A stretch of 64,000 nucleotides of DNA from Utricularia gibba (GCA_002189035.1 CM007989.1:5735001-5799000), one strand, 5' to 3'; positions 13,090 through 63,592 are shown, counted from the first letter of the stretch. Numbers and translations: made by a program. The notes: a model not told the origin generated them from the letters alone.

Positions 13090-14192
13090 TTTGATTGATT
13101 GGGTTATGAAAGTCTTCAAAATATCCTCCAATGAACTTCCAGAATTTCCTCAAGAATTATTCTGGTTTGGAGGCTGAAATTGCTGTTGCATCTGCTGGTT
13201 TGGCTTGCGAAATTGTGGAGCTTGATAAGAACGTTGCTGCTACTCCTGAAAATTTTGCTGAAAACCTTGCTGTCCAGCTGATGAACTCTCACCCTTGTAC
13301 GAATTATCACTATTACTCCATCTGAAATTTGGATGATCCCTCCATCCAGGATTGTAAGTGCTCGAATAGGGATCATATTTCTTCCTTTGTGGCTCCATAT
13401 ATCCCATTGCCTTCACATGTTCTTCCTCCATCAATTCGGGACATTTATCAGCTATGTGTCCCATTCTTAGCTTGGAATAAAAATAGTTCCTTCATCATCT
13501 TAGACATGGTTGCCACATTTTTTGTCAGCTCATTTTCTGATGACTTTGGCTTGCATTCCAGCTCATAAACCCTTTTGTTTGAGGCTTGTTTTCTAATTAT
13601 GTGCCTGGAAGAGCTTCCGTGGGAGTCTTTTTCCTCAAAAAACCACATGATGTAGAATCCACCATGGCTCTATACGTGCATAGAAGACCATCATAAAAAT
13701 ACTTGACCAATGCATTGGTCTTAAATCCGTGGTGTGGACAAGAGCCTAGCAGGTGATTAAAATGCTCTCAATATTCACGTAAAGATTCACCATTTGACTG
13801 CTCAATATCACTAATTTCCTTATTCCTTCAGCTTTTGAACTAGGGAAATATTTACTCAAAAATACCTTCTTCATACCACTCGAATCTATGATGCTCCCAG
13901 GCTTCAAAGAGTTAAACCATGTCTTTGCACTTCCTTCTAGTGTAAATTGGAATACCCTCAAGCAGATGGCATCCTCAGTCATCCCAACACTTTTAATGGA
14001 GGTGCAAACAGCAGTGACATTGTCAAGATGTTCATGTGGGTTTTCACTCACTTTTCTATAATACTTTGACAGAAAATTAATCATAGCTTGCTTCAATTCG
14101 TTGGCTGTGTCATCAGAGAACCTAATACACAGCTCTCTATACGTGTGGTCAGCTGTATCAAGCTCATTCAGGGTCTTCTCCTGTTCTGCCAT
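13090..14192 (-). pseudogene. Athila-like gag polyprotein (degenerate)
   Basis: Minus-strand gag of a Ty3/gypsy element. The start is placed at the Met of MAEQEKTLNEL (14192), because sequence between it and the primer binding site looks like leader. The gag core is clear: ENPHEHLDNVTAVC, then LRVFQFTLEGSAKTWFNSL, then GMKKVFLSKYFPSSK, matching the family pattern DPHKHLKEF...LRAFPFSLKDSAKDWL...FLEKFFPASR. The frame breaks near 13770. Further on a zinc-knuckle half GHIADKCPE (about 13440) and the Athila-typical YNPGWRDHPNFRW follow. No protease, reverse transcriptase or integrase remains downstream, so the element is truncated at about 13090. Confidence 0.8.
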
Positions 14193-14356
14193 ATTGAGAT
14201 TAGTTTGAGTAACAACAGGGAGTCTGCTCAACCTAGCTGCTTCTCTCACTCTTGTGCGATTCTTGCTGATAGTTCTCTCGATTTCTGCATGGAAAACAAG
14301 ATCACCTGCACCAAAAGAACGCAAATGCATCAACCGAATCAAAAAACAATTAAACA

Positions 14357-14378
14357 CCACTCCCCGGCAACGGCGCCA
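14357..14378 (-). promoter_or_regulatory. Retrotransposon primer binding site
   Basis: On the minus strand this reads TGGCGCCGTTGCCGGGGAG and lies 3 bp after the LTR end ...TTTATCA. This form of primer binding site, starting TGGCGCCGTTGCCGGGG, is typical of Athila/Tat Ty3/gypsy elements and is complementary to the 3' end of a host tRNA. It fixes the orientation of the element: LTR at higher coordinates, gag at lower coordinates. Confidence 0.85.
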
Positions 14379-14381
14379 ATT

Positions 14382-15003
14382 TGATAAACGAAAAATTTAC
14401 ACGTCGTAAATGTAAATCTTCCTATCAAATAAATTTATAACCTAATACACATTCTAGCATAAAACAATTATGAGCATAGTGATTAGGGTCGAACACGAAG
14501 AGCAGGTGCTTGCTATGTGAAAGTTGATGCATGAAACTAGTGTCACGTTGGTAAAATTGGTATGAACTCATGCTAAGTGCTTAGCATTCTCATGCTTAAG
14601 ACAAACGAAAACAAAAGAGAAAACATCATCCACAATGCACTCATGCTTGAAATCGTCACTAGCTAATCTTAGCTAGGAGTAATAATCCTTGGAAAACAGA
14701 AAATAATCTTCAAGCATGAACTTAGTTCCTGATTGTCTTCATCCTTCTTCCTCCTCAAAAAACCTTCTCCAGAAAATTATTCATGAGTCTCCAAGGGGAG
14801 ATCTGCCTTCTCTCTCATCTTCCCTCCATTTTTGTCCAAAATCTCACTTTTTCACCTCCTTGGACTTTGTGTGTACTCTTTTTCAGACTTCTGTCACCTT
14901 CTCTGCCACCACACTGTTCATATTCAGCTCCTTGGGATTTGTGTTGCGACCTGTGCTGCATTGCTCGAAGGAAGCTGTTAGAAGTATCTTGCCCTGTTAA
15001 ATG
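14382..15003 (-). mobile_element. 5' LTR (partial) of the Athila-like element, family 'Athila-1'
   Basis: The LTR end TGATAAACG (forward reading) abuts the primer binding site. The sequence is shared with 27481-27828 plus 37578-38331 and with 50461-50930 (opposite strand). Common landmarks include ACGAAGAGCAGGTGCTTGC, AGTGTCACGTTGGTA, and a block with TTTTTGTCCAAAATCTC then CACCTCCTTGGACTTTGTG. The expected LTR start (TGATAACAC type) is missing; similarity fades near 15003, where copia sequence begins. Confidence 0.75.
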
Positions 15004-25060: not shown

Positions 25061-26059
25061 TAAAGGTCTTACATTCATTTGACTGCTTGAGATTGTAGCA
25101 GCCTACATGTGGAGACCCAACGAAGTGCATGTCATCCAAATCCTCATGCTAATTTTCTGATCCAAAAGAATGAACCTTTTCCTCAAAAAAAAAAAAAAGA
25201 AAAAAAGGTGGAAGGGAGAGGGGATAAAAGAGTGTTGATAGAAAGGGTGCAAGAAAGTGAAATAGATGAAGTAGTGTATTATGTGAAGGACCTTTAAATA
25301 GGCATAAATATGAGTAGAGGAGAAAAGAGATAATTTTTTACCAATGAAATATGCAGAAAGAAGGCCAAAGACCTCTCTAGTGTTCTTGGATTTCAGGGTT
25401 TATCATGTTTTTGCAACTGTGTTCATAAGAGCATCTTCAACCATAAGTAGATAGCATCATTATTATTAATTGAACGTCATTTCCTATTTTTTTAATCAAT
25501 AATTATAAAATTTTTTATATATCCACACTTTTTAACACTTAAGTTAGATATATGTTGGACAAACACCACTATTTTCTCGTGAACTACTTAATTCTTCCTT
25601 CTTGGTTGCCGTTATTCTTGCTTCTCTACCAAAAAATTGTCTTTTGAGATCTACACCTAGTAACTTTGACACTCTAGCCAAATGAAGACAATGGTGACGA
25701 TGATTTTAACAATTGGACTTCTCTTTGATTTTTATTTTATGACATTTTAATTTGTAATTACATCAATTTTCATGCTTTATTACTTGTACTTACAGATCTA
25801 TGGTTTATTAATTGTAGTTTGTTTGTGTATGCACGAATAGTTTTAGTTTCAAAGGAAATACTTCTCATTGAATGGTTGTATAAAGTTATTAAAATCACTT
25901 CTTTTGGAAGCTAAGTTTCAGGAGGCAGAATTGTTACCGTGATTAACGATTATCATATACTTGCTTATGGTTCTACATCATCAATACTACTTTGTCACTT
26001 GTAGCTTTAAATAGATTGTTGGTTGTTTTGAATTTACATTATGATCTTAATGTTATCAT

Positions 26060-26650
26060 TATTGTAGATGATTGATCAAAATGGATTATAATCGAAAAGA
26101 TGAATTGAAGATGAAGAGCTTCTTCTTATTTCAACTTGGTTGAATGCTAGTATTGTGATATAGGGGTCGGGAGATATCATTATATTGATGCTTTCAAGAA
26201 AAAATGGAGCAACTTGAATCGAGATGTCCAAACATTTACTGGTTGTTATAGTCAAGTCTAACAAGCGGAATGAATGAACATGATTATAAATGAGATGTTG
26301 TAGCCCTCTTCATGCAACAAACATGGAAGGATTTTGTCATTTAAATTGTTAGAAAATTTTGAGAAATGAGCCAAAGTGGAAAACAGGAATATTTTAAGTT
26401 TGTTTATATTAGTTTCCTCATTTACATACAATATGAATTTTTCTTATGACAGTTTGTTAATCTCAGAATTAAGAATTCAGGAAAGAAAAGGTGTATTGAG
26501 AATGACATAGAGAAAGCAATGGAAACTCCACAAACACAACGTGATGTGCATCCTATGAGCCAAAAAGTAGCGAAGTGAATGCATAGTGGTGATAGTAGTC
26601 CCTCAAGATCTACCACAAACTTGGAATTGAGTAAATACACCATACCCTGA
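26060..26650 (+). pseudogene. Harbinger-associated Myb/SANT-like ORF (degenerate)
   Basis: Reading across frames gives LISTWLNASIV (about 26120-26150), KWSNLNRDVQTFTGCYSQ (about 26205-26260), MNEHDY, LFMQQTWKDFV (about 26310) and MSQSGKQEYF. This follows the plant pattern LISAWLN...RWQKIN..VQKFVGCY...LYQKDFGK...EPKW of the Myb-like/NAM-associated proteins carried by PIF/Harbinger elements or derived from them. Stops occur throughout. The open frame 26749-26949 just downstream may belong to the same element, but I do not recognise it. Confidence 0.6.
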
Positions 26651-27475
26651 ACCACTATGAGACGCTATTCAATCTCAAACTGCAGTGTGCAATAGGTACA
26701 AGGAATTTTAAATATCGAAGGAAATTAGAAAACTACATTTTTCTAAAGTTGGATGATTACACCTTTGAAAAAAGGAACTTTTACAATGCAACAATGAATA
26801 CATTGCAAGTTATGATGCAATCTCTACCAAATATGAATTCTGTCACTTTTACAATAACACAAGGTGATCATAGTCAAGTACGTGCTGAATATGTTGTGAA
26901 CTTGGGAGATGGTTTGAACAACATAGATCTTACTATTTCTAGCTTTTAGATCATATTTATGTAGGATAACAATTATATTTCATGTAGAAGATAAACTTCT
27001 TTCATGTACATGTATTAGATTTTGCATCTTTAAAATTGTAATTTTCATGAAAAATATATTTGAATTGCATAATAATATAAAAACAATAGAATATTGTAAA
27101 GTTGCATAATAATATAAAGCAAACGAATATCATAAGCTACAAAATATTTTAAAGAAAAGTAATATTTTCAAATTGCAAAATATTTAAAGTAAAGGAATAT
27201 TTAAAAATTATAGAATAATTTGTAAATCGACCCTATAAAAGACTATGTGATCCTTTTCATATTTATATCTCTACACCCATATCTTCTGTATTCTCATGAA
27301 TCATCCAAACTTCTTCATTCTATTTGCTACAATGGACTTGGAAGGAATAGTTCAAGTAGGATATAGTCATATTTTAAATAATTATGCAATAGTGAAGAAG
27401 GGTCTCGAAAACATCTAGCACCTCATTGTTTCCTTAAGTGTGAATGTGAAGCTGATCATGCTAAATTGTATCAAG

Positions 27476-27480
27476 ATTAT
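27476..27480. repeat. Target-site duplication ATTAT, left copy
   Basis: ATTAT lies immediately left of the LTR boundary TGATAAACG at 27481. The matching copy is at 38332-38336, immediately right of the boundary GTGTTATCA at 38331. The pair shows that everything between entered as one LTR insertion into the Harbinger element. Confidence 0.8.
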
Positions 27481-28686
27481 TGATAAACGAAAAATATTGC
27501 AATGTCATTAATATGCAAATTTTCCAATCAAATAAAATTTATAAACCTAATTCACATCAAGTCATATGAAAAATATGAATATAATAGACTAAGGTCGAAC
27601 ACAAGGAGTTAGGAGCTTGCTATGTAAAAGTCAATACATATAATTAGTGTCACGTTGGTAGATTTGGTCTTAACTAGGATTAAGGCAGAATAATGATGGA
27701 ATGTAAAGAAAAGTAACAAACTTTTGAACGGGTTGTTCTTGAGATGAAATGGATGATACCTTAGGACTCCTATAGGATGTATGTCTATCATTAAAACATT
27801 CTCACACAAACTATGAATCAAACATCCATGAAAGCACATAGATTTTTCTACTTTTATTATACGGAAATCACAAGTTTTTAATTATATTTAGTTATTTATT
27901 TTATAGTTTTAAGTATTTTGATGTAACTTAGGGAGAGAGAGCAGTTTTCAGCATGCACACGAGGGGGTTTCTCCTCCAACTCAAACACGACGAATACTGA
28001 GAGGAGAAGGAAAAAGAAGGGTAATTTTTCTGGAGAAAAACCTCCAACGTGAAGAACAAAGATCAAGACCCAGTCCAGCGCTACTGTTCTGGCCTTTGAA
28101 CAGTAGCAGACAAAAACTAGAACTCTTACTACTTTACTTTCGCTTGTTGATGTTTTTAGTTTCTCCAACCAACTCTTTCACGATATTCTTGACATTTTTT
28201 GCACATTATGTTAATGTTATCATATTTTACATTCCAAGTATGAATAGCTAAACCTTTTGGAATGCCTTAAGGTAAAACATGGTAATGTGGATTTAGGATT
28301 CATAAGAAAATTCATCATTGTTTCTTAGCTCTTGTTTCTATCATTCCATGGGTAGACCTAAAGAGAGGAACAAGTAGCTTCACAACTAAGATGCTTGATT
28401 TAGAGGTAGACCAACAAATCAAGGCGAAAGCAGTGGGTGTTAGTCTGAGGTAGAACGAGTAGAATCGAGTAGACCTAGTTCTATATGCTTTTCATGCGGG
28501 TAGACTAATTGCAATGTTGGTGATGATATAGGGGACTAGCTTAGCTGAAAATATGATGAATGACCTGGGTAGACTTAGGTTATTTGAAGTTGTGAGTGTA
28601 GGAACATAGTAGATTCAGTTAGGCATTTTAGCACCACACCAACTGCAGACCCTTAAGACATTTTAGTATTACTTTGAGGTAGAACC

Positions 28687-29029
28687 TAGTGGGGCATAAA
28701 TTGGATTAAGATAATCGGCCTCTGAAAAGCTGCTGAAAGGTGCTTTGACGGGCTAGCGCTGGCCGACAAAACGATATGTTTCAGAGACCTGACAACGGCG
28801 GTCGTATGGCGCAGTCTAAAAAATGACCGGATCATAGCAAAACAGGCGGCGATCATCTGAAAAGTAAGATCACAGTACAAGCACAAAAAGTAACCGACGC
28901 CTACAGAACTCATATTTTGGTTAGATCGACCTCTCCTATAAGTAGGGGAAATTCTGAAGAGACCTGTGTTCCACTCTAAGCCCTCCAACTTGTACTTCTC
29001 TCCCCACCTCCATCTAGTGAAGACTTTGA
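28687..29029 (+). repeat. 5' LTR (truncated) of Tat element B
   Basis: It starts TAGTGGGGCATAAATTGG and follows the solo LTR at 6641 through the TATA-like CTCCTATAAGTAGGGG (about 28940) to CATCTAGTGAAGACTTTG. The last third of the LTR and the primer binding site are missing. About 80 bp of unassigned sequence (29030-29111) separates it from element A. Confidence 0.75.
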
Positions 29030-29111
29030 AGTTTACACCCCTGATAGGCATCCCAAATCGTAAGCCTTGGCCAAGTCATGTAAGCCTAGGCAAATCTTCT
29101 AAGTCTACGGG

Positions 29112-29642
29112 TGTTATGGGTGAAATCGGTATTCGGTAAGAGGCCGATTTTAGGTGATGGGCGTGGTCAGGAATGCCACACTTAGTCACCTTCTCCACGG
29201 CTAGTACGATTAAAATAAGAGTGAACAGGGATTTTTTACGTGGATACCGCCGGAGAGCGGAAAAACCATGGAGCTGCCGGAGCTCGCCGGAAAAGAGTTT
29301 CACTAGATGGGGGTCGCGAAAAAGGAGAATACAACTTGAAGAAATCTTTTCTGAGTCCAACCCCTTTCTTGTCATAATTCCATCTATTTATAGGAGAGCT
29401 CACTCTGACCGAATTCTGGTGTCTACAAATATCGGTTGCTTTCTGCTCCTGCTATACGATCTCGCTTTTCAGATATCGGCCGCCTGTTATGCCGTAATTC
29501 GGCCGCTTTTTAGAATGTGTCATATGGCCATACCTGTCAGATTTCTGACAGACGTCGATCTGTCGTCTGGCGTTATTCCCTCGGGATCTCTTTTGGTAGC
29601 CTTTTAGGAACCGATTACCCTTGGCCGATTTTTCCCTTATCA
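29112..29642 (-). repeat. 3' LTR of Tat element A (reverse orientation)
   Basis: On the minus strand it starts TGATAAGGGAAAAATCGG directly after a polypurine-like CAGAGGGGCTGAA (29655-29643) and ends ACCCATAACA. At 531 bp it equals the solo LTR at 6641-7175 and shares TCTGAAAAGCGAGATCG, CTCCTATAAATAGATGG and GTGAAACTCTTTTCCGGCG. Plus-strand open frames here (such as 29173-29607) are chance readings of the LTR. Confidence 0.85.
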
Positions 29643-29851
29643 TTCAGCCCCTCTGATTCGCCGATATTAGCCCTTTTCGGGGTAAATCGGGGGATCAGAA
29701 CTACTACAATACCGATTCTTGAGTTGCCGCTTCCCCGAATAGGCCACATGTCGTTCTCTACCACGCGTCGGCTCGTTGGCATGCCACGTTTTTTCCCGCT
29801 CATTCTGGGTACCCCAAACGTCATGACACTTCGTCTCCCTAACCTTTCCCG

Positions 29852-29859
29852 TATAAATA
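29852..29859 (+). promoter_or_regulatory. TATA box of the antisense ORF of element A
   Basis: TATAAATA inside CCCGTATAAATAAGCGCCC, about 260 bp upstream of the antisense-ORF start codon at 30116 and pointing the same way. Its position between the 3' LTR and the ORF suggests that the antisense ORF has its own promoter separate from the LTR. Confidence 0.5.
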
Positions 29860-30115
29860 AGCGCCCTTCGCGTTAGTTCTTTCCTTTGCCTTTTCTATTG
29901 CCTGCAAGAGTTTTGTGCCCTCTGTGCTCCGTCACACTCGTCTGCCGCTCGATCGTCGTGATATCCGTCGGAAAACGTCAATTTTCCAGGTATCATTCGG
30001 TTCTTCGTCTTTTCCATTTGGTCTTCTGGGATTTTTGACGGGTCCCCCTTGTCGTTCTAAGTCCTTCCCCCTTCCTAACTCCTGCCTCGTTCTACAGTTT
30101 TGGGCTTCTTTGAAA

Positions 30116-32364
30116 ATGGGTAGGAGATCTAGTGAACTAAACATCCCCTTCCTTCGCATTCGGTACTCGATCCCTGATGAGTACCAGCTTTCTCATGCTC
30201 GGGATGTTGAAATCCCTTGGGGGTAGGTGAGGACCCCCTGCCTCCGTTCAGTCTCCCAATTCCACTTGCCTATTTCGAAAGCGATTTACGCTTCCCTCTT
30301 CACCCTTTAATAGTCCGTTTTCTCTATACCTTTGCAATTTCGATTTACTGTCTCGCCCCGAATTCCATATTCTGCTTTACCACTTTCCTTTTCTTTTCGG
30401 CCGGTATGGATCCGGCTATGACTCTGGTAGACTTCTGTCATCTCTTCAAGATAGCCGTTCGTAAAGCTAAGTCCCCGATGGATGGCCGATCTCACTTTCA
30501 ATTCCGATGATTCGAAGATAACCCCAACTTTGTTGTTAAAGCCCCTGATACCCACCATGATTGGTGGTCTTCTTTCATTTGGATAGCTCCCCTTTGGGTT
30601 CTCGGTGGAACTTCCCAGTCGATCCCCCAACTCCTTTCAAGATCAAGATCATGGGTCCGTATCGGTCTTCTTCCGAATCTCATGAAGTCGTTTATGAGAG
30701 GCTTAGTCGGGGCTTAGTTCGGTATGAGTCTCGTGCCTTGATGTTCTCGGATGAGTCGTTGAAAAGATTAGGTATTATCGGTCGTTCCCGAGACCTCCAT
30801 TGGCCCGATATCATTCCTTTCGACGGCACCGATTCGAGGAGCCTTCCTCTTAGCCCCTCTTCATCCTTCCCTCTTGTTCCGGCTTCACCTCCAATTCCCC
30901 CACCTGTACAAACTGGGGCCCCCAAGAAAAAGAAGAGGGTTAAGACAGTTGCGCACAAACCCTCAAAGAGGTAGAGAGGTAGTCGGGTTCAGCTTTCCCG
31001 AGTCTCAGAATCGGCACTATGCCTTATTGCTTTTCCTTCTTTCGTTTTCAGCTGAAGAGATGGCTCGGAGAAGCTCTCTGGAAGGTTCGGTGATGGCGCG
31101 GTTCTCCGCCGAGATGCAGAGGGTGCAGGAACCCGAGGATCCCTCCCTACACCAGTCTGTCTCCTATTTAACAGTTACCGCGAATTGCCGATTATAACCC
31201 CCCCCCCTTTTTTTTTGGTTTTTCTTTCAGGCTGATATGATTGGAGCTCAGTTGGACGCCGCTAATCCTTCCTCGGGGGAAGATCAAGTAGTAGAAGTCT
31301 CCGAGACCCGGGAGTTGACTTCCCGTCCTTCAGCCGGGAAAGGGAAAGAGAAACTTCCTCCATCACCCGATCTCAGCGATACTCCTATTCCCGATGCAAG
31401 ATTCTTTTCGGCTGGTGCTTCAATATCGGCTCTTCCAATCGAGTTATAGAGGGATTCTGCCCTCGTAGAAGTAAGGGACAACCCGGTGCTTCCTCTACCC
31501 TCAGTTCCAGCTGAACTAAGGGGAATCCTGGATGGAGCTATGTCTAATACCTCGGGTGTTGAGCCGGAGAAGATACTTGAAGGGATCTGGCAAGTACGTA
31601 TCCCGTTTCCTCTTCTAAGTTCTAAGTAGTCGGTCCTTGACTAGGGATATTCTTTTAGGCTCTGACTCTTGGGTGGGGAATGGTTAGAGAGATTGGCTCT
31701 CAATCAGAGGAAGTTTCTTGGCTTCGGGCCCAGGTTGTGGCTCAGAGCGCCCAGATAAAGTTGTTGGAGGAGGGGAGTTCGCTGAAAACCGTTTTAGGGA
31801 AACGCAGCCGCTAGGAGGAAGAACTGCAAAATGTGATCGAGGAAATGGGAAAGACGGTTGATGACGCTCAATCAGAGAGATAGGGCTTCAAAGTCCGATT
31901 TGAGGAGGCAGAAGCGGAGTTAGAGCATGCCAGGGGCCGCATTTCAGCATTGGAGGCCGAATTACTTGATCAACAAGCATCTCGGCAGGGTCTTCTGGAT
32001 GACTTTGTCAACTCGGCCTGTTTTGCCGAACTCACCGATATCTATGCAGGAGATTTATTCGGCTTACTTCTATACCATCAGAGACGACAGTTCAGCCGGG
32101 AATTTGGGCTTTCAATCATGGATCCGCGCTTCGACAGGATAAACCCCTGACGAAGGATGATAACATGCTTGATGTTATCGCGGATACCTTCCAGGCTCCG
32201 GAGTTCGGGTTAGAAGCTAATCGGGAGCGAATGATTTCGCTAATTCGGGCGAGTATAGGGCGAGAGAATGACGCCAAGTTGAGGGCAAGGATGGAACGGC
32301 ATACCGGTTCCTCTGCCAATCCTCCCGATAATCCCCATCCCCTCTTGTACTTTAGTAGTTTTTG
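30116..32364 (+). pseudogene. Antisense ORF of Tat element A, gypsy-type transposon domain
   Basis: The start codon is that of MGRRSSELNIPFLR. The core domain LRFPLHPLIVRFLYTFAI, then LAPNSIFCFTTFLFF, then LFKIAVRKAKSPM (about 30280-30500) matches the plant 'putative gypsy type transposon' domain (Transposase_28 family). Next come a tryptophan-bearing stretch (DTHHDWWSS), a Pro-rich linker, and a basic PKKKKRVKTVAHKPSKR (30920-30974) that looks like a nuclear localisation signal. The last part is a coiled coil ending RISALEAELLDQQASRQG and LTDIYAGDLFGLLLY (about 31935-32075). In-frame stops (for example near 30510) and frame changes break it, though part may be introns. It runs opposite to pol and converges with it. 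Its function in the Tat lineage is unknown. Confidence 0.7.
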
Positions 32365-33145
32365 ACTTGATGTTTTTCCCCCTGCTGTGGGGCTTTTTTG
32401 ATAATTTTGGTCTCCCGGTTCGGGATTTTCTTCTAATTTACTCTGTTTTTTGCGCATCACTTTTGCCTTTGGTGACGTTCACATTTTGAGGGAAGCCCCG
32501 AGTTGGTTTGCTGTGTCTATTACGTGCTTAGACTTGGAGATTCGCCTATACTTTTATGATTCGGGGGTGGATGCCTCCTCGCCAACCCTTTGATTGGACT
32601 TTTTGATTTTAGTTTGCCTTAGTGTTTCCTCATGCGAGCTGAACTGCTGCTAGGGAAGTAGGTCGGAACCCCTCATGGGTTGAGCGACTTCTCCAATCCG
32701 AAAGGGCCCTCTTTTGGCCATACCCATTGTTTTGAACATTGGTGGATTTGCTTTGGGTGCTCTTGCCGCCTCGAGATTACGACAACAAGGTCAATACTTA
32801 AGGGCTTTTTGGGGTTTACGCGTGCGATTTATATAAACCGGTGCTCGAATCGTACCAGGGCTTATTCTTGCTATTGACACCTGGGTTGGTGTATCGCATA
32901 TATATATCGTGGGAGACCCCGAGTCGATTTGCTGTATCCCATAGGGGACTCCGATTTAGGAGATTCGCCTGGGCTTACGTTACTTGGCCAAAGCTTTAAA
33001 TCTTTGATGGTCTGCCTGGGCTTACGCGATTCGGCCAGGGCTTGTGTTTTGTTTTCCCATCTCCATTTCGGAGGAATTTATAGTTGCATGAGTGCTTTGG
33101 GGAAGAGAATGCCGAATCCTGTGACAGAGATTGATATTGAGTCGG

Positions 33146-33784
33146 TTAGGCGTAGAACTTCCTTAGATGGGATGCGTTCCACGACCTTGGGAGTTCCACG
33201 CCATCTAATTGTTCCAGGCGATATGCTCCTTTTCCAATCACCCTTGAAATCCGATAAGGGCCTTCCCAGTTGCGGTCTAATTTCCCGACGTGTCTTTGCG
33301 GTTGGACGCTTCAAAGCACCAAATCTCCCTCATGGAATTCTCTTGAGGATACCGAGTTGTTGTAACTTTTCTCCGTTCTTCTCTGATAAGCCCCTAGTCA
33401 GCTATAGATGCTTTGTCGCTTCTTTTCCAACAGCTCCAATTCCAGTTTTCGGAGTTCAGTATTCTCTTCTTCATTATAATGCTCTACCTGGTAGCTCTTC
33501 AAGGTCAGTTCGATAGGGCATATGGCTTCTGAACCGTAAACCAATAAGAATGGGGACTCTTCCATGGTGGTTCGAGGGGTAGTGCGGTATGACCACAGTA
33601 CCTCATCTAAGCGATCTGCCCATGACCCCCCAAAATCTTCGAGCTTAGTCTTCATACCTAGTGGGAGTGTTTGGTTCGTTACCTCTGTGAGGCCATTGCT
33701 TTGCGGGTGATATACCGAGGTGAAGTTGTGCTTGACCGAATACTTATCCAGGAATGCATCCATTTGTCCTCCGGCAAAAGACAC
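33146..33784 (-). pseudogene. Ty3/gypsy integrase C-terminal part, Tat element A
   Basis: Minus-strand reading from 33784 gives DKYSVKHNFTSVYHPQSNG, then LWSYRTTPRTTMEESPFLL, YGSEAICPIEL and, in the same region, GDLVL. After a stop it continues VGKLDRNWEGPYRISRVIGK, then GAYRLEQLDG and PRSWNASHLRKFYA, ending at TAA (33148-33146). This is the end of the gypsy integrase with its C-terminal domain. Two in-frame stops are visible (after SIYS and after LVL). The N-terminal zinc finger, first two catalytic acids, reverse transcriptase and protease are absent, because the sequence breaks at 33785. Confidence 0.85.
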
Positions 33785-34444
33785 ACAACCTCCGGGTTAT
33801 ATAGCCCCAGGTAAATCCCCCATGTCTAAGCCCGTTATGGGCACAGTAAACCAACTCAGGGCTCCTCTTGAAATGTGGTATCCTCTAAACCCAGGCTCTA
33901 GTGACTAGGGTAAGCCCTAGTATGATTCAGGCACCGGTTTCCTAAATCATTTGCGTAAGCCCCGAAAAGGCCCCAAAGTAAGGCTCTCGCTACTAGACCT
34001 TGAAATGGTAAACACACTCAAAGCAAAGCTGGCTCTACCCCGAACAGCACGGATTTGGCCCTATTCGAAATGAGGAAGCAACTCAACCTACGAAAGGTTC
34101 TGATTTACATTCGTAGCGAATACTTAGGCACAAAAGCCCAACTAAGTGACTAACAAAACCATGAGACTCACAAATTGGAGTAATCGATAAAAAGGAGAAG
34201 GCAATGTATCAAAACTAGGAAAGTGAAGGAAGGAATCCCAAATCAAGACTCCAAAATATCCAAAAACCCCAAATCGGGGACAAAAAAGTTAGCTCTAGGG
34301 AGTGAAGGAAAGGAAAAAGAAACTAAAGTTCAAGAGGAGGAGGGAGATCAGTGGGAGGACCAACTAAGGGGCCAATGTGCCCCTGTAGCCTCGCTCGCAG
34401 CTTGGCCTCATTCTCCTGCCCGATTCTAGCCCGAATGAGTGCAA
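33785..34444. other. Spacer of Tat element B between pol remnant and antisense ORF
   Basis: Non-coding sequence similar in character to 32380-33145 of element A, the region between the antisense ORF and the end of pol. It contains repeated AAGCCCCGAAAAGG- and CCCCGAG-like motifs. The junction with element A lies at about 33785. Confidence 0.45.
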
Positions 34445-36443
34445 TTAGGCGTTCCCGATCAGCTCCCAGCTGATTTGACACCTTTGCCGATATAGAAGTA
34501 CACCGATTAGATCCCCGGCGTAGATGTCTGATAACTCAGAGAAGCAAGTCGAATTAACCAAATTTTCCAAGAGCTCCCGCTGAGACGTCTCTTGGTAGAG
34601 TAGTCCAGCCTCTAAGGCCGAAACGCGTTCCTTGCTCTGCTTCAACTCCGCTTCAGCTTCCTCAAACAGCACTTTGAAACTTTCCTTCTTGGAGTTGGCA
34701 TCATCAATCGCCTTCCTCATCTCATCCACCAAGCTCTGCAACTCCTCTTCCCGGCGGGTGCGTTTCCTGAGAATACTTCTTAGCGCGTTTCCTTCCTCTC
34801 CCAATGACTTTATCTTGGCATTCTGTGACGCAACCTGGGCTTGAAGCTGAGAAACTTCCTCCGAAGCGGACCCCATTTCCTTGGCCATCCCCACCCAAAG
34901 GTCAAGGCCTTAGAAAAAGATCATCAAATCGGATATCGACTATGTATAATCCCGAGAAAGAAGAAAAGTACTTGCCAAATTCCCTTGAGTATAATTTTGA
35001 GCTGAGCTCCCGAGACATTCAGAGTCGCCTCCTCTAAGGCCCTTCGCAGCTCCGGTGGGAATGAAGACGGTGGTAGGGCGGGATCCTCCCTTATCTCAAT
35101 CGGAGGAATGGAACTTCTTTCTGCATCATTCGAAGGAGTTGATGCGGAGGCGCCGGCCAAAAAGGGCCCCACGCAGAGAGCTAGACTTTCGGTAGATATC
35201 GGCGAGGGAGATAGTCTCTCTTTCCATTTTCTTGACGCCAGGGGAGGAGTCGGCTCCCGATTTTCAGGAACCTCAATCACCCGATCTCCTTCCACACTCA
35301 AATCGGCAGCATCTAGCTGAACTTCTGGGGAACCGGCCTAGAGGAAGAAATAAAAGGGGTTAGATTCGGGAATTGGAAATCGATAAACAGGGGACAAACC
35401 TGTGCAGAAGAGGTCGCCTTAGGCTCTTGCATTCTCTACATCTCAGCTGAGAAACGGGCCATTACCGAGTCCTCCAGGGCACTTCTTCAGGCCATCTCTT
35501 CAGCTGCAAACCAAAACTCGGAAAGTAGTAAGGCACCGTGCTGAGTCTGAAATTCGGAAAAATATAACCTAACTACCTCTCTGCTTCTTAGAGGGTTTAT
35601 AGGCAAGTGCCTTAACACTTTTTTTTTTGGGGGGGGGGGGGAGACGTGGGTTGAGTAGTTGGGGAAGTCGGAGATGAAACAGGAACGAAGGGAAGATTAT
35701 GAGGAGGATTAGGGGGAAGAGTAGGTAAACTGGTACCTTCTGAAGGCACAATATTTGGTCAATGAGAATTGTGAGAATGACTAATGATACCTGATCTCTT
35801 CAGCGATACCCTAAAACATAAGGCACGAGATTCGAAGCAGATAGAACCTCGGCTAAGTTTCTCGTAAAGAACTTCACAGGATTCGGAAAAAGATTGGTAT
35901 GCACCAAAGAGCATTACCCTAAAAGGCATCGGGGGATCATTCTGGAAGTTCCACCGAAAACCCAAAGCAGGTGCCACCCAAACGAAAGAAGACCACCAAT
36001 CATGGTGGGTATCAAGGGCTTTCATGATAAAGTGAGGATTATCCTCCAATCGGCGGAACTGAAAGTGAGATCGGCCATCCATGGGGGACTTTGCTTTACG
36101 AACAGCTATTTTGAAAAGCTAAAGAAAGTCCACCAAAGTCATAGCTGGATTCATACTAGCCGAAGAGAACAGAAAGGTAGTGAAGCAGAAAATGGAATTC
36201 GGCGCAAGGCAATAAAGCGGAATTGCGAAAGTGTGAAGAAAGCGGACTATCAAATGATGGAGAGGGAAGTGTAAACCGCTTTCGAAGTAAGCCAAAGGGA
36301 TCGGCAAACTGCAAGGAGGAAGCGGACTTTCGACTAACCCCAAGGGATTTCGGTATCCGAGCATAGGAGACCATATACACATCAAGAATGGAATACCGGA
36401 TGCAAAGAGAAGGAATCTCTATCTCACTGGACCTTCTACTCAT
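34445..36443 (-). pseudogene. Antisense ORF of Tat element B, gypsy-type transposon domain
   Basis: The minus-strand counterpart of the ORF at 30116-32364. It starts MSRRSSEIEIPSLCIRYS (36443), then has LHFPLHHLIVRFLHTFAI, LAPNSIFCFTTFLFSS and LFKIAVRKAKSPMDGRSHFQ. The segment DDPMP-like DPPMPFRVMLFGAYQSFSES and LYEKLSRGSICFESRAL follow. Then come a Pro/Lys linker PPPPKKKSVKALAYKPSKK (with C/A homopolymer runs at about 35620-35642) and a long coiled coil ending SELSDIYAGDLIGVLLYR near 34480. Frame changes and stops break it. Both copies keep the same order of domains, so the ORF belongs to this element family and is not a captured fragment unique to one copy. Confidence 0.7.
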
Positions 36444-36938
36444 TTTCGGAGAGATGAAGGAAGTGTCTAACCCAGGAACAAAGCGGAAAAAGGAATAAGA
36501 GAGGAGATTAGAAAAAGACAGGGGACTCCGGCAAAATCATAAGGAAGCGAACGGAAAGAGGAAACACAGACTAATACTTGAAAATGTGTGATTACTGGCG
36601 GTTTTCATGACGGCGAAGAAGGCGAATGAGCGCGAAGGAGCACGAACGACGCTAAAATCTTGCGAGTGAACAAAGAAAGCAAAGGGGAGAAGTGACGGGG
36701 GGAGCATGTACTTCTAGGAGAGATACTCGGAAGACGAAACGACGCGTCGTTTGAGATGCCCAAAATGAGTGAGAAAAAATGTGGCGTGCCCAGAAGGCAA
36801 CACGTGGTGAGGAAATCGGACTAAATCGGTTTGAAACCTACTCATGGGAAAGCGGTACACTTGACATTGGTACGGTGACAATTCTGATCCACTGACTTGC
36901 CTTGAAACGGCCAATATCGGTAAATCAGAGGGGCTGAA

Positions 36939-37303
36939 TGGTGTGGCATAAATCAGATTAGGATAATCGGCCTTTGAAAAGCTATCGAAAGGTGCTCTGA
37001 TGGGCTAGCGCCGGCCGATAGACCGATATGTATCAGAGACCTGACAACGGCGGCCATATGGCACAGTTTGAAAAATGGTCGGATCATAGAATAAAAGGCG
37101 GCGATCATCTGAAAAGTAACCGACGCCTACATAACTCATATTTCGGTTAGATCGACCTCTCCACGTAAAAAGTCTTCATCCCTTTCTATTTTCACAAAAC
37201 ACACCCAACGAAGCATGAAACTAACACCCGACTTCGACCCCTCTAACGAACTCCATAACCTGAAAATTGGTTCCGACCCCAACGCCGATTTTCTTCCTTA
37301 ACA
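36939..37303 (+). repeat. 3' LTR of Tat element B (internally deleted)
   Basis: It follows a polypurine-like CAGAGGGGCTGAA (36926-36938), starts TGGTGTGGCATAAATCAG and ends CTTCCTTAACA at 37303. About 170 bp present in the solo LTR at 6641 are missing at the junction CGACCTCTCC|ACGTAAAAAGTC. The GAACC duplication follows at once. Confidence 0.8.
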
Positions 37304-38339
37304 GAACCAATATTTGTTACCTTTAGTGTTGAAACCTGATTTTGTTTACTAAACTTGCTTACCACTATTAATCCATGCTTAAACTAAGAACTACTGTTAT
37401 TCCGAATTCTGCATCTGCTTATAATACATTGCAAGCACCGGCTCTTTGTGATCGACCCCGAATTCCACTGAAGATTTTGTGTTTAATTTGTATTTTATGA
37501 GGATTAGGGCTTATAAATTTATTTGATACGAAAATTTGGTTTTATTGCAACAACATTGCTAAAATTTTTGTTGATCAATCTAACAAACAAAGTTTAGGTC
37601 TACCTGAACTTTTTTTTTCCCCTAATCTTTGGTTTATCTCTATTTAGGGTTCTAAGATGAGTTGCACTATTCCCCCCTTCTGAATCTATCCTGGTTTGTT
37701 AAGGAAGTGGCGTGACTTAGCCACTCATAACAAGGGAAAGGAAAGCATCTTCATAACACATCCTAAGCAACATTTTGTTTTCAAGGTTAAACAACAAGAT
37801 AAGATGCATTATAGAGTATAAACAGTAAATTGTTCATGTGGGGAAATCTAAAACTAGTCTCAGCTAGGAACAATATTCATAAAAAATGAAAGAAAATCTT
37901 CAAGGAAAACTTGTTCTTCTGAATTGCCGTCCCCTCCTTCTTTCCCCAAAAATCTTCTCCAGAGAGAACATCATGTGTCTTAATTAGGGTTTCGTTTCTC
38001 TCTCCATCTTATCTTCTTTTTTGTCCAAAATTCTCCTTTTTCATCTCCTTGGATTTTGTGTACTTCTTTCAGACTTTTTCCTCATCCTCTGTTACTGCAT
38101 TGTTTATTTCCGGCTCCGAGGGATTTATGTTGCCGACATGCGCGATATTGTTCAAAGAAAACTATTATTAGTACGGTTGGTACTAAATTACGATTTAGTC
38201 CCAACTAAGAATAAAAAACACAACTACAATTCTATTCGCAAAAACATAGAAATAAGTAATAAAGCTTCATTTTTATAACACATTATGAATTATTTCCATG
38301 TATTGAATCACTCAAAAAATAAGTGTTATCAATTATTTT

Positions 38340-39142
38340 TTGGATCAATCTACATATAATAAAGACATATTTCTACGGCGATTTCACATGCAACATCTTC
38401 TATTCCTACAGAATGCTAATCCTCTCCAACATTTTGAGCTTTATTTTCAAGATAAAATTGATGCTATTAGTCGGGTAAGTCTTTCATGCCTCCAAAAGTA
38501 CACAATTGCTATTTGTATGTTGTCATATGATTGTAGTGCTGATTGTGTGAATGAATATATATAGAAGAGACCACTACACTTGAGTGTCTTCGTCATTTTT
38601 TTTAGGCATTTGCTTGACTTTTAAAGAGCATTACAGAGAGCTCCATCCATGAGGGACATGCAATGTTTATTAACCTTTGGGAAGACTCATGGATTACCTA
38701 GTATGCTTGGTAGTGTAGAATGCATGCATTGGAAGTGGAAGAATTGTCCTATTGCATGGCAATAGGATAATGTAAGGTGACACACCTGCTGATATTATAA
38801 AGTCAATTCACTATTGTGACAATACTTGCAAGGGTATGGGATCAAGACACACTTGCTGATATTATATATGCATGTCCTAAAACCCTAATTAAATAATTGA
38901 TTAGTCGCACGATTGAGGGAGGTGTTGTGATTGTTGAGGATGAAGGTCATATTATTCCTATTGTTAATGTTGAAGCTCAATATGATCAAATGAGAGTTGA
39001 GAAACCAATATTCCATTCTAGTGTAGAACTCAACATGGATTCATTTCTTCTTCAAGTAGCTCAATCTCAAGAATATGTTATGCATTGTCGACTTAAGAAT
39101 GATTTTGTGAAACATATTTGGACTACATTTGAGAATCAATGA
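38340..39142 (+). pseudogene. PIF/Harbinger transposase (degenerate)
   Basis: Pieces in family order: FLRRFHMQHLLFLQ and FELYFQDKIDAISRVSLSC then QKYTIAICMLSYDCSADCVN (38380-38555); APSMRDMQCLLTFGKTHGLP and MLGSVECMHWKWKNCPIAW (38645-38765); and a C-terminal GGVVIVEDEGHI...VMHCRLKNDFVKHIW (38920-39125). The second piece matches the plant consensus LGSIDCMHWEWKNCP, but the Asp of the first catalytic position reads as Glu. The segment carrying the second Asp and the final Glu is deleted between AWQ and the C-terminus. The gene cannot make an active enzyme. The LTR nest inserted just upstream of FLRRF. Confidence 0.75.
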
Positions 39143-39379
39143 TGAAAATTGTATTTCATTTCTATACTTTTATTAATGTATTTTTTTATGAATTATACTT
39201 ATTTTATTAGTAAATTGATTTATATTATTAATAAATTTAAAACTACAATGGTCAAATATTGTTGTATAAAGTATGGATAGACTATTAAAAAGTAAAAACA
39301 TACTACATGATAAAATAAAATAATGACATGTAAATTGTTTTAGTAATAGTTCATTTATCTATGATTGGAGATGCTCTCA

Positions 39380-62234: not shown

Positions 62235-63592
62235 TAATAAACGAAAATTTCTAATGTCGTTGCAAAAATAGAAAATTCGTTATCAAATAAATTTATAATC
62301 CCTAATCTACACAAAATACAAATTTAGAAAACTTGTATAGTGGATATCAGGGTCAATCACAAAGAGCTTGTGCTTGCTAAGTGTTTTAGTAAATGCATAA
62401 TTCGGGATAACAGTTAATTTTAGTCTATGCGCGGACTAACAGTGGTGAACAAGTTCAGTAAACAAGATCAGTAAATAATATCAGGTCTTAACGCTAAGGT
62501 AACAGGTACTAGTTCTAACTCAAAATAACACACGAAGATGCCTTAAGGATCTGTAGGTGGTGTAATGCTAAGGTTCCTAACTTAATTTACAATCTTCCTA
62601 CACTCACAACTTCAAATAACCTAAGTTTACCCAGGTCATTCATCATACTTTTAGCTAAGCTAGTCCCCAATATCATAACCAACATTGCAATTAGGTCTAC
62701 CCGCATGCAAAGCATATATAACTAAGTCTACTCGGTTCTACTTGTTCTACCTTGGACTAACACCGACTGCTCCCGTCTTGGTTTGTTGGTCTACCTCTAA
62801 ACCAAGCATCTAAGTTGTGAAACTACTTGTTTCCCTCCTTAGGTCTACCCATAGTTTGTTAGAAACAAGAGTTAAGGAACACACATAAATTTCATCATCA
62901 ACCCTTAGCACACACCAATCCACTTCACCTTAAGGCATTCCTAAGACTCTAGCCACGCATGCTTTGAATGTAAAACATGATAACATTAACATAAAGCAAC
63001 GAAAATGTCAAGAACATCGTGAAAGAGTTGGTTGCAGAAATTGAAAAACATCATCAAACGAAAATAAAGCAGTAAGAGTTCTGGTTTCCGTCTACTTCTG
63101 CTCCCTAACCGAAACAGTAGCGTTGGACTGGGCTCTTATGCTCCTGGTTCAGTACTCGTCGTGTTGGGGGAGAAGCCCCCTCGTCGGGTCTGCCCGTCTT
63201 CTCTCCCCAAAAAAATATCTTCACATCTTTTTTCCATTTTTCAAAATCAGTCCACTGTTCCTGACATCTGTACTGTTCCTGGCCTGAACCTACAGACTGT
63301 AGGCGGCTGAATAGTGCATTATGTCTCCTCTTTTAATGCTGCCCATTCTTCCAAATCTCTACATGTACGAAATTCATGTATTCTCCCTGATTTTTGAACT
63401 TTGTTGCTGGACTAGAAAAAATGTTAATAACATGGGATGGGTTAAATCAAAGGATTTAACCCATTAACACATAAAATCACATTATGCCCTAAAATTTGGT
63501 AAAAATACTAAAAACTATAAGATAAACACTTAAAACATGATTCAAAAGTATAATTTTCTTATTCTAATAATAGGAAAATTCATGTGTTATCA
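62235..63592 (-). mobile_element. Solo LTR 'Athila-2', full length
   Basis: Minus orientation. The start is TGATAACACATGAATTTTCC (63592 downward) and the end ...TTTCGTTTATTA (62235). At 1358 bp it is the longest copy in the window and served as the reference for the copies at 15571 and 27829. It is flanked by a perfect 5-bp duplication ATTAT (62230-62234 and 63593-63597). The GC-rich centre holds CGACGAGGGGGCTTCTCCC (minus strand). No internal sequence is adjacent. Confidence 0.85.

Follow-up and report, generated by a model that had tools for sequence, protein, structure and literature searches.

Evidence for five nested transposon insertions at one locus of Utricularia gibba, with an order supported by empty sites, target duplications and a sequence clock

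Positions 25429-39376 of the window, by which we mean the whole 64,000-nucleotide stretch of DNA analysed (G000:C1:5735001-5799000), almost certainly record five successive transposon insertions, Harbinger, Athila-1, Athila-2, Tat B and Tat A, followed by ordinary decay. Boundaries were read directly, inserts were cut in silico and the flanks were checked for uninterrupted matches in the searched genome (100 Mb, 516 contigs); joining was limited to the LTR and Harbinger flanks. Empty sites, target duplications and a clock that is independent of nesting agree that the five-layer nest is real. Each boundary given in the original prediction holds to within a base or two, and its sizes of about 1.1 kb per solo LTR and 3.1 kb for Harbinger compare with the 1097 bp, 1127 bp and ~3.09 kb obtained here. 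Taking out each insert, as that prediction proposed, and with it one target duplication restores a continuous LTR or Harbinger sequence that is unbroken in intact genome copies.

In the history we propose, a PIF/Harbinger DNA transposon would have arrived first. An Athila-type LTR retrotransposon (Athila-1) would then have entered the start of the Harbinger transposase gene, duplicating ATTAT (5 bp), a second Athila would have entered the Athila-1 LTR, duplicating ATCCA, and Tat B would have entered the Athila-2 LTR, duplicating GAACC. A younger Tat A would have inserted into Tat B in reverse orientation, with ACGGG as the surviving target copy. Each Athila would have collapsed to a solo LTR when its two LTRs recombined with each other, and three microhomology-type deletions would have taken the Tat B gag-pol, the Tat A 5' half with ~350 bp of Tat B, and part of the Tat B 3' LTR. 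The features, in order along the window, are as follows.

25429-27480, plus strand: Harbinger, left part, with 5' TIR GAGCATCTTCAACCATA, decayed ORF1 and the start of the transposase gene; placed by TIR ends and homology to relatives
27476-27480, no strand: Athila-1 target duplication ATTAT, left copy; read directly, single in empty Harbinger copies
27481-27828, minus strand: Athila-1 solo LTR, left piece; runs on into 37583-38331 in 7 genome copies
27824-27828, no strand: Athila-2 target duplication ATCCA, left copy; direct reading and base-level view
27829-28686, plus strand: Athila-2 solo LTR, left piece; internal loss of ~0.26 kb near 27925-27940
28682-28686, no strand: Tat B target duplication GAACC, left copy; read directly, single in most empty Athila-2 copies
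28687-29024, plus strand: Tat B 5' LTR, proximal part; distal part deleted, family LTR homology ending near 29023-29029
29021-29024, no strand: deletion junction 1, microhomology AGAC; 5' LTR fused to the region downstream of pol, private to the locus
29025-29111, plus strand: Tat B internal fragment from immediately downstream of pol; it ends in ACGGG (5 bases), probably the surviving Tat A target copy
29112-29642, minus strand: Tat A 3' LTR, complete; 91% to the LTR of the intact relative L053
29643-33778, minus strand: Tat A 3' region and integrase C-terminal end, truncated 5'; integrase ORF at 33398-33796 (minus)
33773-33778, no strand: deletion junction 2, sharing GGC exactly or GGCAAA if one mismatch is allowed; joins the Tat A integrase to the Tat B 3' region
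33779-36938, plus strand: Tat B 3' region; antisense Transposase_28-like ORF
36939-37303, plus strand: Tat B 3' LTR with internal deletion; junction TCC at 37160-37162
37304-37308, no strand: Tat B target duplication GAACC, right copy; read directly
37309-37577, plus strand: Athila-2 solo LTR, right piece; placed by alignment through the join
37578-37582, no strand: Athila-2 target duplication ATCTA, right copy; one transition from the left copy
37583-38331, minus strand: Athila-1 solo LTR, right piece; ~72 bp shorter than relatives
38332-38336, no strand: Athila-1 target duplication ATTAT, right copy; read directly
38337-39376, plus strand: Harbinger, right part; transposase C-terminus at 38897-39139, 3' TIR GATGCTC

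The outermost layer reads GAGCATC...GATGCTC at its ends, with TAA and TCA on its flanks. Its relatives are 3.8-3.9 kb long with GGGCATC TIRs and perfect TAA or TTA duplications (TAA/TAA, TTA/TTA and TAA/TAA in three with GGGCATC left ends), so the TAA/TCA pair, with its one mismatch, is best read as a degraded form of the expected 3 bp duplication. The outer flanks of the nest have no second match in the searched genome, and hence no paralogous empty site for Harbinger was found there. Membership of both Harbinger and Tat was tested on intact relatives, since Pfam matches of the window's own ORFs mostly fall below threshold. The Harbinger relative L056 matches Plant_tran (PF04827) at 1e-47 and 8e-17, and the C-terminal fragment in the window is identical to its Plant_tran ORF at 49 of 71 residues (69%). 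Roughly 0.33 kb is missing around 38762-38792, and therefore most of the Plant_tran domain, its catalytic core, is gone from the window copy. The element is assigned to Harbinger on the strength of its TIRs, its target duplications and, via the relatives, Plant_tran. Features shared with described PIF/Harbinger elements are the terminal inverted repeats, the 3 bp TAA/TTA duplication in relatives and the two ORFs, Myb/SANT-like and Plant_tran, whereas the window copy differs in being without most of the transposase catalytic domain and in its TAA/TCA flanks (PMC2213677).

Within Harbinger, the original prediction had claimed target duplications at three layers, and direct reading finds all three: ATTAT, ATCCA/ATCTA and GAACC. 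By chance a random pair of 5-mers in the window is identical with p ~0.0014, and agrees with at most one mismatch with p ~0.021. For the empty Harbinger site, at least five genome copies, with identities of up to 82%, run across the join at the centre of a 400-base query, and in base-level view ATTAT occurs once in such copies. The Athila-1 LTR itself runs from TGATAA to TTATCA between its 5 bp ATTAT copies. When its two pieces are joined (27481-27828 with 37583-38331), all seven fetched genome copies align through the join at position 348 in one HSP; some 72 bp found in all four LTRs compared are absent from the window copy. Orientation was taken from the gag and PBS of the relative L054 and from a window copy at 14382. 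L054 carries Retrotrans_gag, RVT_1, RNase H and Integrase_H2C2; no second RNase H was detected in it, and PF03078 gave no match in the ORFs scanned. At window position 14362, adjoining an Athila-1-type LTR, lies an exact Athila-type primer site, CGCCGTTGCCGGGG, identical to the reference Athila PBS motif. Gag-pol content, primer site and LTR features together point to Athila as the probable family.

Two observations concern these copies themselves. Window 13749-15003 holds an Athila-1-type LTR (14382-15003), the exact primer site (14362) and a gag fragment ORF (13749-14396, minus strand). The primer site of L054 (7914-7931) departs from the exact motif by five C-to-T or G-to-A transitions, as expected because methylated DNA decays in this way.

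The Athila-2 LTR reads TGAAAG...TTGATCA within its 5 bp duplication ATCCA/ATCTA, and the joined sequence aligns through the join with window copies at 63137-62237, within the stretch that had been proposed for alignment, and 16360-15571. In the genome, every one of the 40 copies scored spans the join in a 400-base query centred on it, with identities of up to 87%, and GAACC is single in most empty Athila-2 copies in base-level view. As the complete family LTR measures 1.36-1.40 kb, the window copy must be internally deleted (~0.26 kb). Primer sites were sought next to Athila-2 copies as a guide to orientation and none of the eight best copies carries one, because these copies appear to be solo LTRs; orientation was therefore taken from the inverted relation to Athila-1.

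Athila-1 and Athila-2 are each a single LTR with one pair of target duplications and no internal region, that is, solo LTRs. A solo LTR with one such pair is a known outcome of LTR-LTR recombination, and we infer this origin for both. That the two pieces were never full elements, having inserted as LTR-only non-autonomous copies, is very unlikely: it would suit the close Athila-2 copies in the genome, almost all of which consist of an LTR and nothing more, but there are relatives of Athila-1 that carry both LTRs, gag and pol (L054), and a lone LTR has neither the PBS nor the polypurine tract for replication. Other Athila-2 solo LTRs in the genome carry target duplications such as ACCCA and AGTAG. 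Separately, a complete Athila-2-type solo LTR of 1358 bp, with ATTAT duplicated on both sides, lies at window 62235-63592. Nearly all the closest copies of both Athila LTRs (L035-L042, L002-L008) are without an adjoining primer site and are apparently solo, a near-ubiquity which suggests heavy LTR-LTR recombination in this genome.

Tat B spans 28687-37303 and is without gag-pol and parts of both LTRs. The fusion of its 5' LTR to internal sequence is spanned by no other scored genome copy, with many matching one side, and the loss there amounts to 4.6 kb against L033 and up to ~5.8 kb against L053. The 3' LTR deletion at TCC is likewise private to the locus. We considered Tat B as a non-autonomous family that lacks gag-pol by descent, and rejected this for the deletions of the present copy because no other scored copy spans either the LTR-to-internal or the 3' LTR junction. 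Microhomology of 3-4 bp occurs at all three Tat deletion junctions (AGAC, GGC and TCC). By our own calculation at equal base frequencies, at least three bases of chance microhomology are expected in ~5% of joins, and all three junctions have at least three; we infer end joining as the cause of the deletions.

The original prediction of a reversed Tat A inside Tat B, with its LTR at 29112-29642, stands, but Tat A is not a whole insert, for it ends within the integrase gene at 33773-33778. On the left, the LTR terminus is the one that perfect duplications (TACTC and AATAG) adjoin in two intact relatives of Tat A, which makes 29112 a genuine end of the integrated element and the ACGGG just before it presumably one of the two target copies. 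On the right, homology to L053 ends at 33778. Relatives of Tat A continue past 33773-33778 into more pol, and those of the right-hand side are Tat B-like and begin there; the Tat A side reads CCTCCGGCGAA and, past the breakpoint, TTGAG, and the Tat B side GGTT and, past it, GGCAAAAGAC. Both Tat A/Tat B junctions are unique to the locus, with relatives of each side ending at the junction. What remains of Tat A is one LTR, the 3' region and the integrase end; ~5.4 kb (by a complete relative) and the second target duplication are missing. A search near 33.0-33.8 kb for the Tat A 5' LTR or the second target copy found none, the stretch being integrase coding sequence. About 350 bp of Tat B is also absent relative to L033, a figure that is approximate because of a ~185 bp repeat in the Tat 3' region. 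A single deletion of the Tat A 5' half, the second target copy and some Tat B would account for the truncation, the missing copy and the Tat B loss together. With that target copy absent, the case for a Tat A insertion rests on its exact LTR terminus and the private junctions. As an observation on the Tat 3' region, a duplicated block of ~140-185 bp is common to two distant copies (L033:4173-4765 and L034:4161-4712).

Assignment to the Tat clade draws on L053, the intact Tat A relative, which has RT_RNaseH_2/RT_RNaseH at residues 230-355 and RVT_3/RNase_H at 392-502 in one ORF. A second RNase H is the feature that separates Tat from Athila, and an extra Transposase_28 ORF in the 3' region occurs in 23% of Retand elements (PMC6317226). 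Our Transposase_28 matches are below threshold but consistent (26.0, 24.0 and 20.3 bits against a cut-off of 26.2). Tat membership is supported by the second RNase H of the intact relative and by these weak matches. The elements resemble the Retand-like Tat clade of Ty3/gypsy in that second RNase H, in a large 3' non-coding region and in a candidate Transposase_28-like extra ORF antisense to pol; unlike it, both copies in the nest are fragments without reverse transcriptase (PMC6317226).

A clock that makes no use of the nesting gives the same order. Private divergence was taken as the three-point terminal distance to sampled relatives, or for Tat B as half the LTR-LTR distance, and its medians in substitutions per site were 0.130 for Harbinger, 0.099 for Athila-1, 0.078 for Athila-2, 0.070 for Tat B and 0.034 for Tat A. 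The ranking matches the nesting exactly, outermost highest. In bootstraps Harbinger exceeded Athila-1 in 178/200, Athila-1 exceeded Athila-2 in 163/200 (198/200 with longer sequence), Athila-2 exceeded Tat B in 143/200, where the gap is not significant, and Tat B exceeded Tat A in 197/200. These values back the order but give no dates, because the sampling of relatives affects them. In a survey of 4126 nested/original pairs, LTR divergence was discordant in 25% (PMC7251063). Our analysis shares with that survey the use of nesting as an absolute relative clock against sequence divergence and differs in that all four adjacent steps at this locus are rank-concordant.

The same data bear on whether Tat A and Tat B might be one chimeric cDNA, made by template switching during reverse transcription and integrated once, giving four insertions and not five. 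The two belong to the same clade and lie mutually inverted within one LTR pair bounded by a single outer duplication, GAACC, and template switching is reported to build complex LTR elements in Triticeae, although Sabot and Schulman report no such elements in Arabidopsis (PMC1950507). Against it, neither composite junction has a second occurrence in the searched genome, the left one coincides to the base with the end of a complete Tat A LTR, where integration has to place it, and the private divergence of Tat A is roughly half the Tat B value (0.034 against 0.070; 197/200 bootstraps). We therefore rejected the chimera on its private junctions and the age difference, and consider it highly improbable.

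With five separate insertions as the preferred reading, the claim that this one locus records the order of both insertions and deletions is upheld in full for the insertions and in part for the deletions. The fixed sequence is Harbinger, Athila-1, Athila-2, Tat B, Tat A and then the deletion shortening Tat A, which is necessarily later than the Tat A insertion. Each solo-LTR recombination may precede or follow the next insertion, because LTR-LTR recombination of an element can keep an insert inside its LTR; the deletions in the Tat B 5' and 3' LTRs are unordered relative to Tat A.

A repeat-dense region in a genome of 516 contigs invites the thought that the layers were built by segmental rearrangement or misassembly and not by transposition. 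We regard this as extremely improbable, since three to four layers have target duplications and exact termini, with continuous empty sites, which rearrangement would not produce. Nests built by transposition are well described, with clusters in A. thaliana (PMC545599) and across eukaryotes (PMC2672092). The present one is like the nested LTR-retrotransposon clusters of plant heterochromatin, and the nests resolved genome-wide with REANNOTATE (PMC2672092), in having younger elements inside older ones, a time order given by nesting, and an Athila-rich content with many solo LTRs and truncated copies; it differs in being a new locus where nearly every step is checkable, including private deletion junctions. 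It is an unusually clean and well supported nest, yet of an ordinary kind for plant heterochromatin; it involves no new mechanism and raises no new question. Its value is illustrative: the order of nesting agrees with the target duplications, the empty sites and the sequence clock in one clean case, which also shows insertion and microhomology-type deletion at work on a single set of elements. The locus could be used in teaching or calibration, both of annotation tools that resolve nests and of decay rates in heterochromatin.

One further LTR related to Tat B was noted elsewhere in the genome. This 523 bp LTR (G000:C413:1937371-1937893) has distal stretches identical to Tat B along 53 bp (100%) and 88% identical along 144 bp, against only 72% for the entire 5' LTR, which suggests a mosaic LTR.
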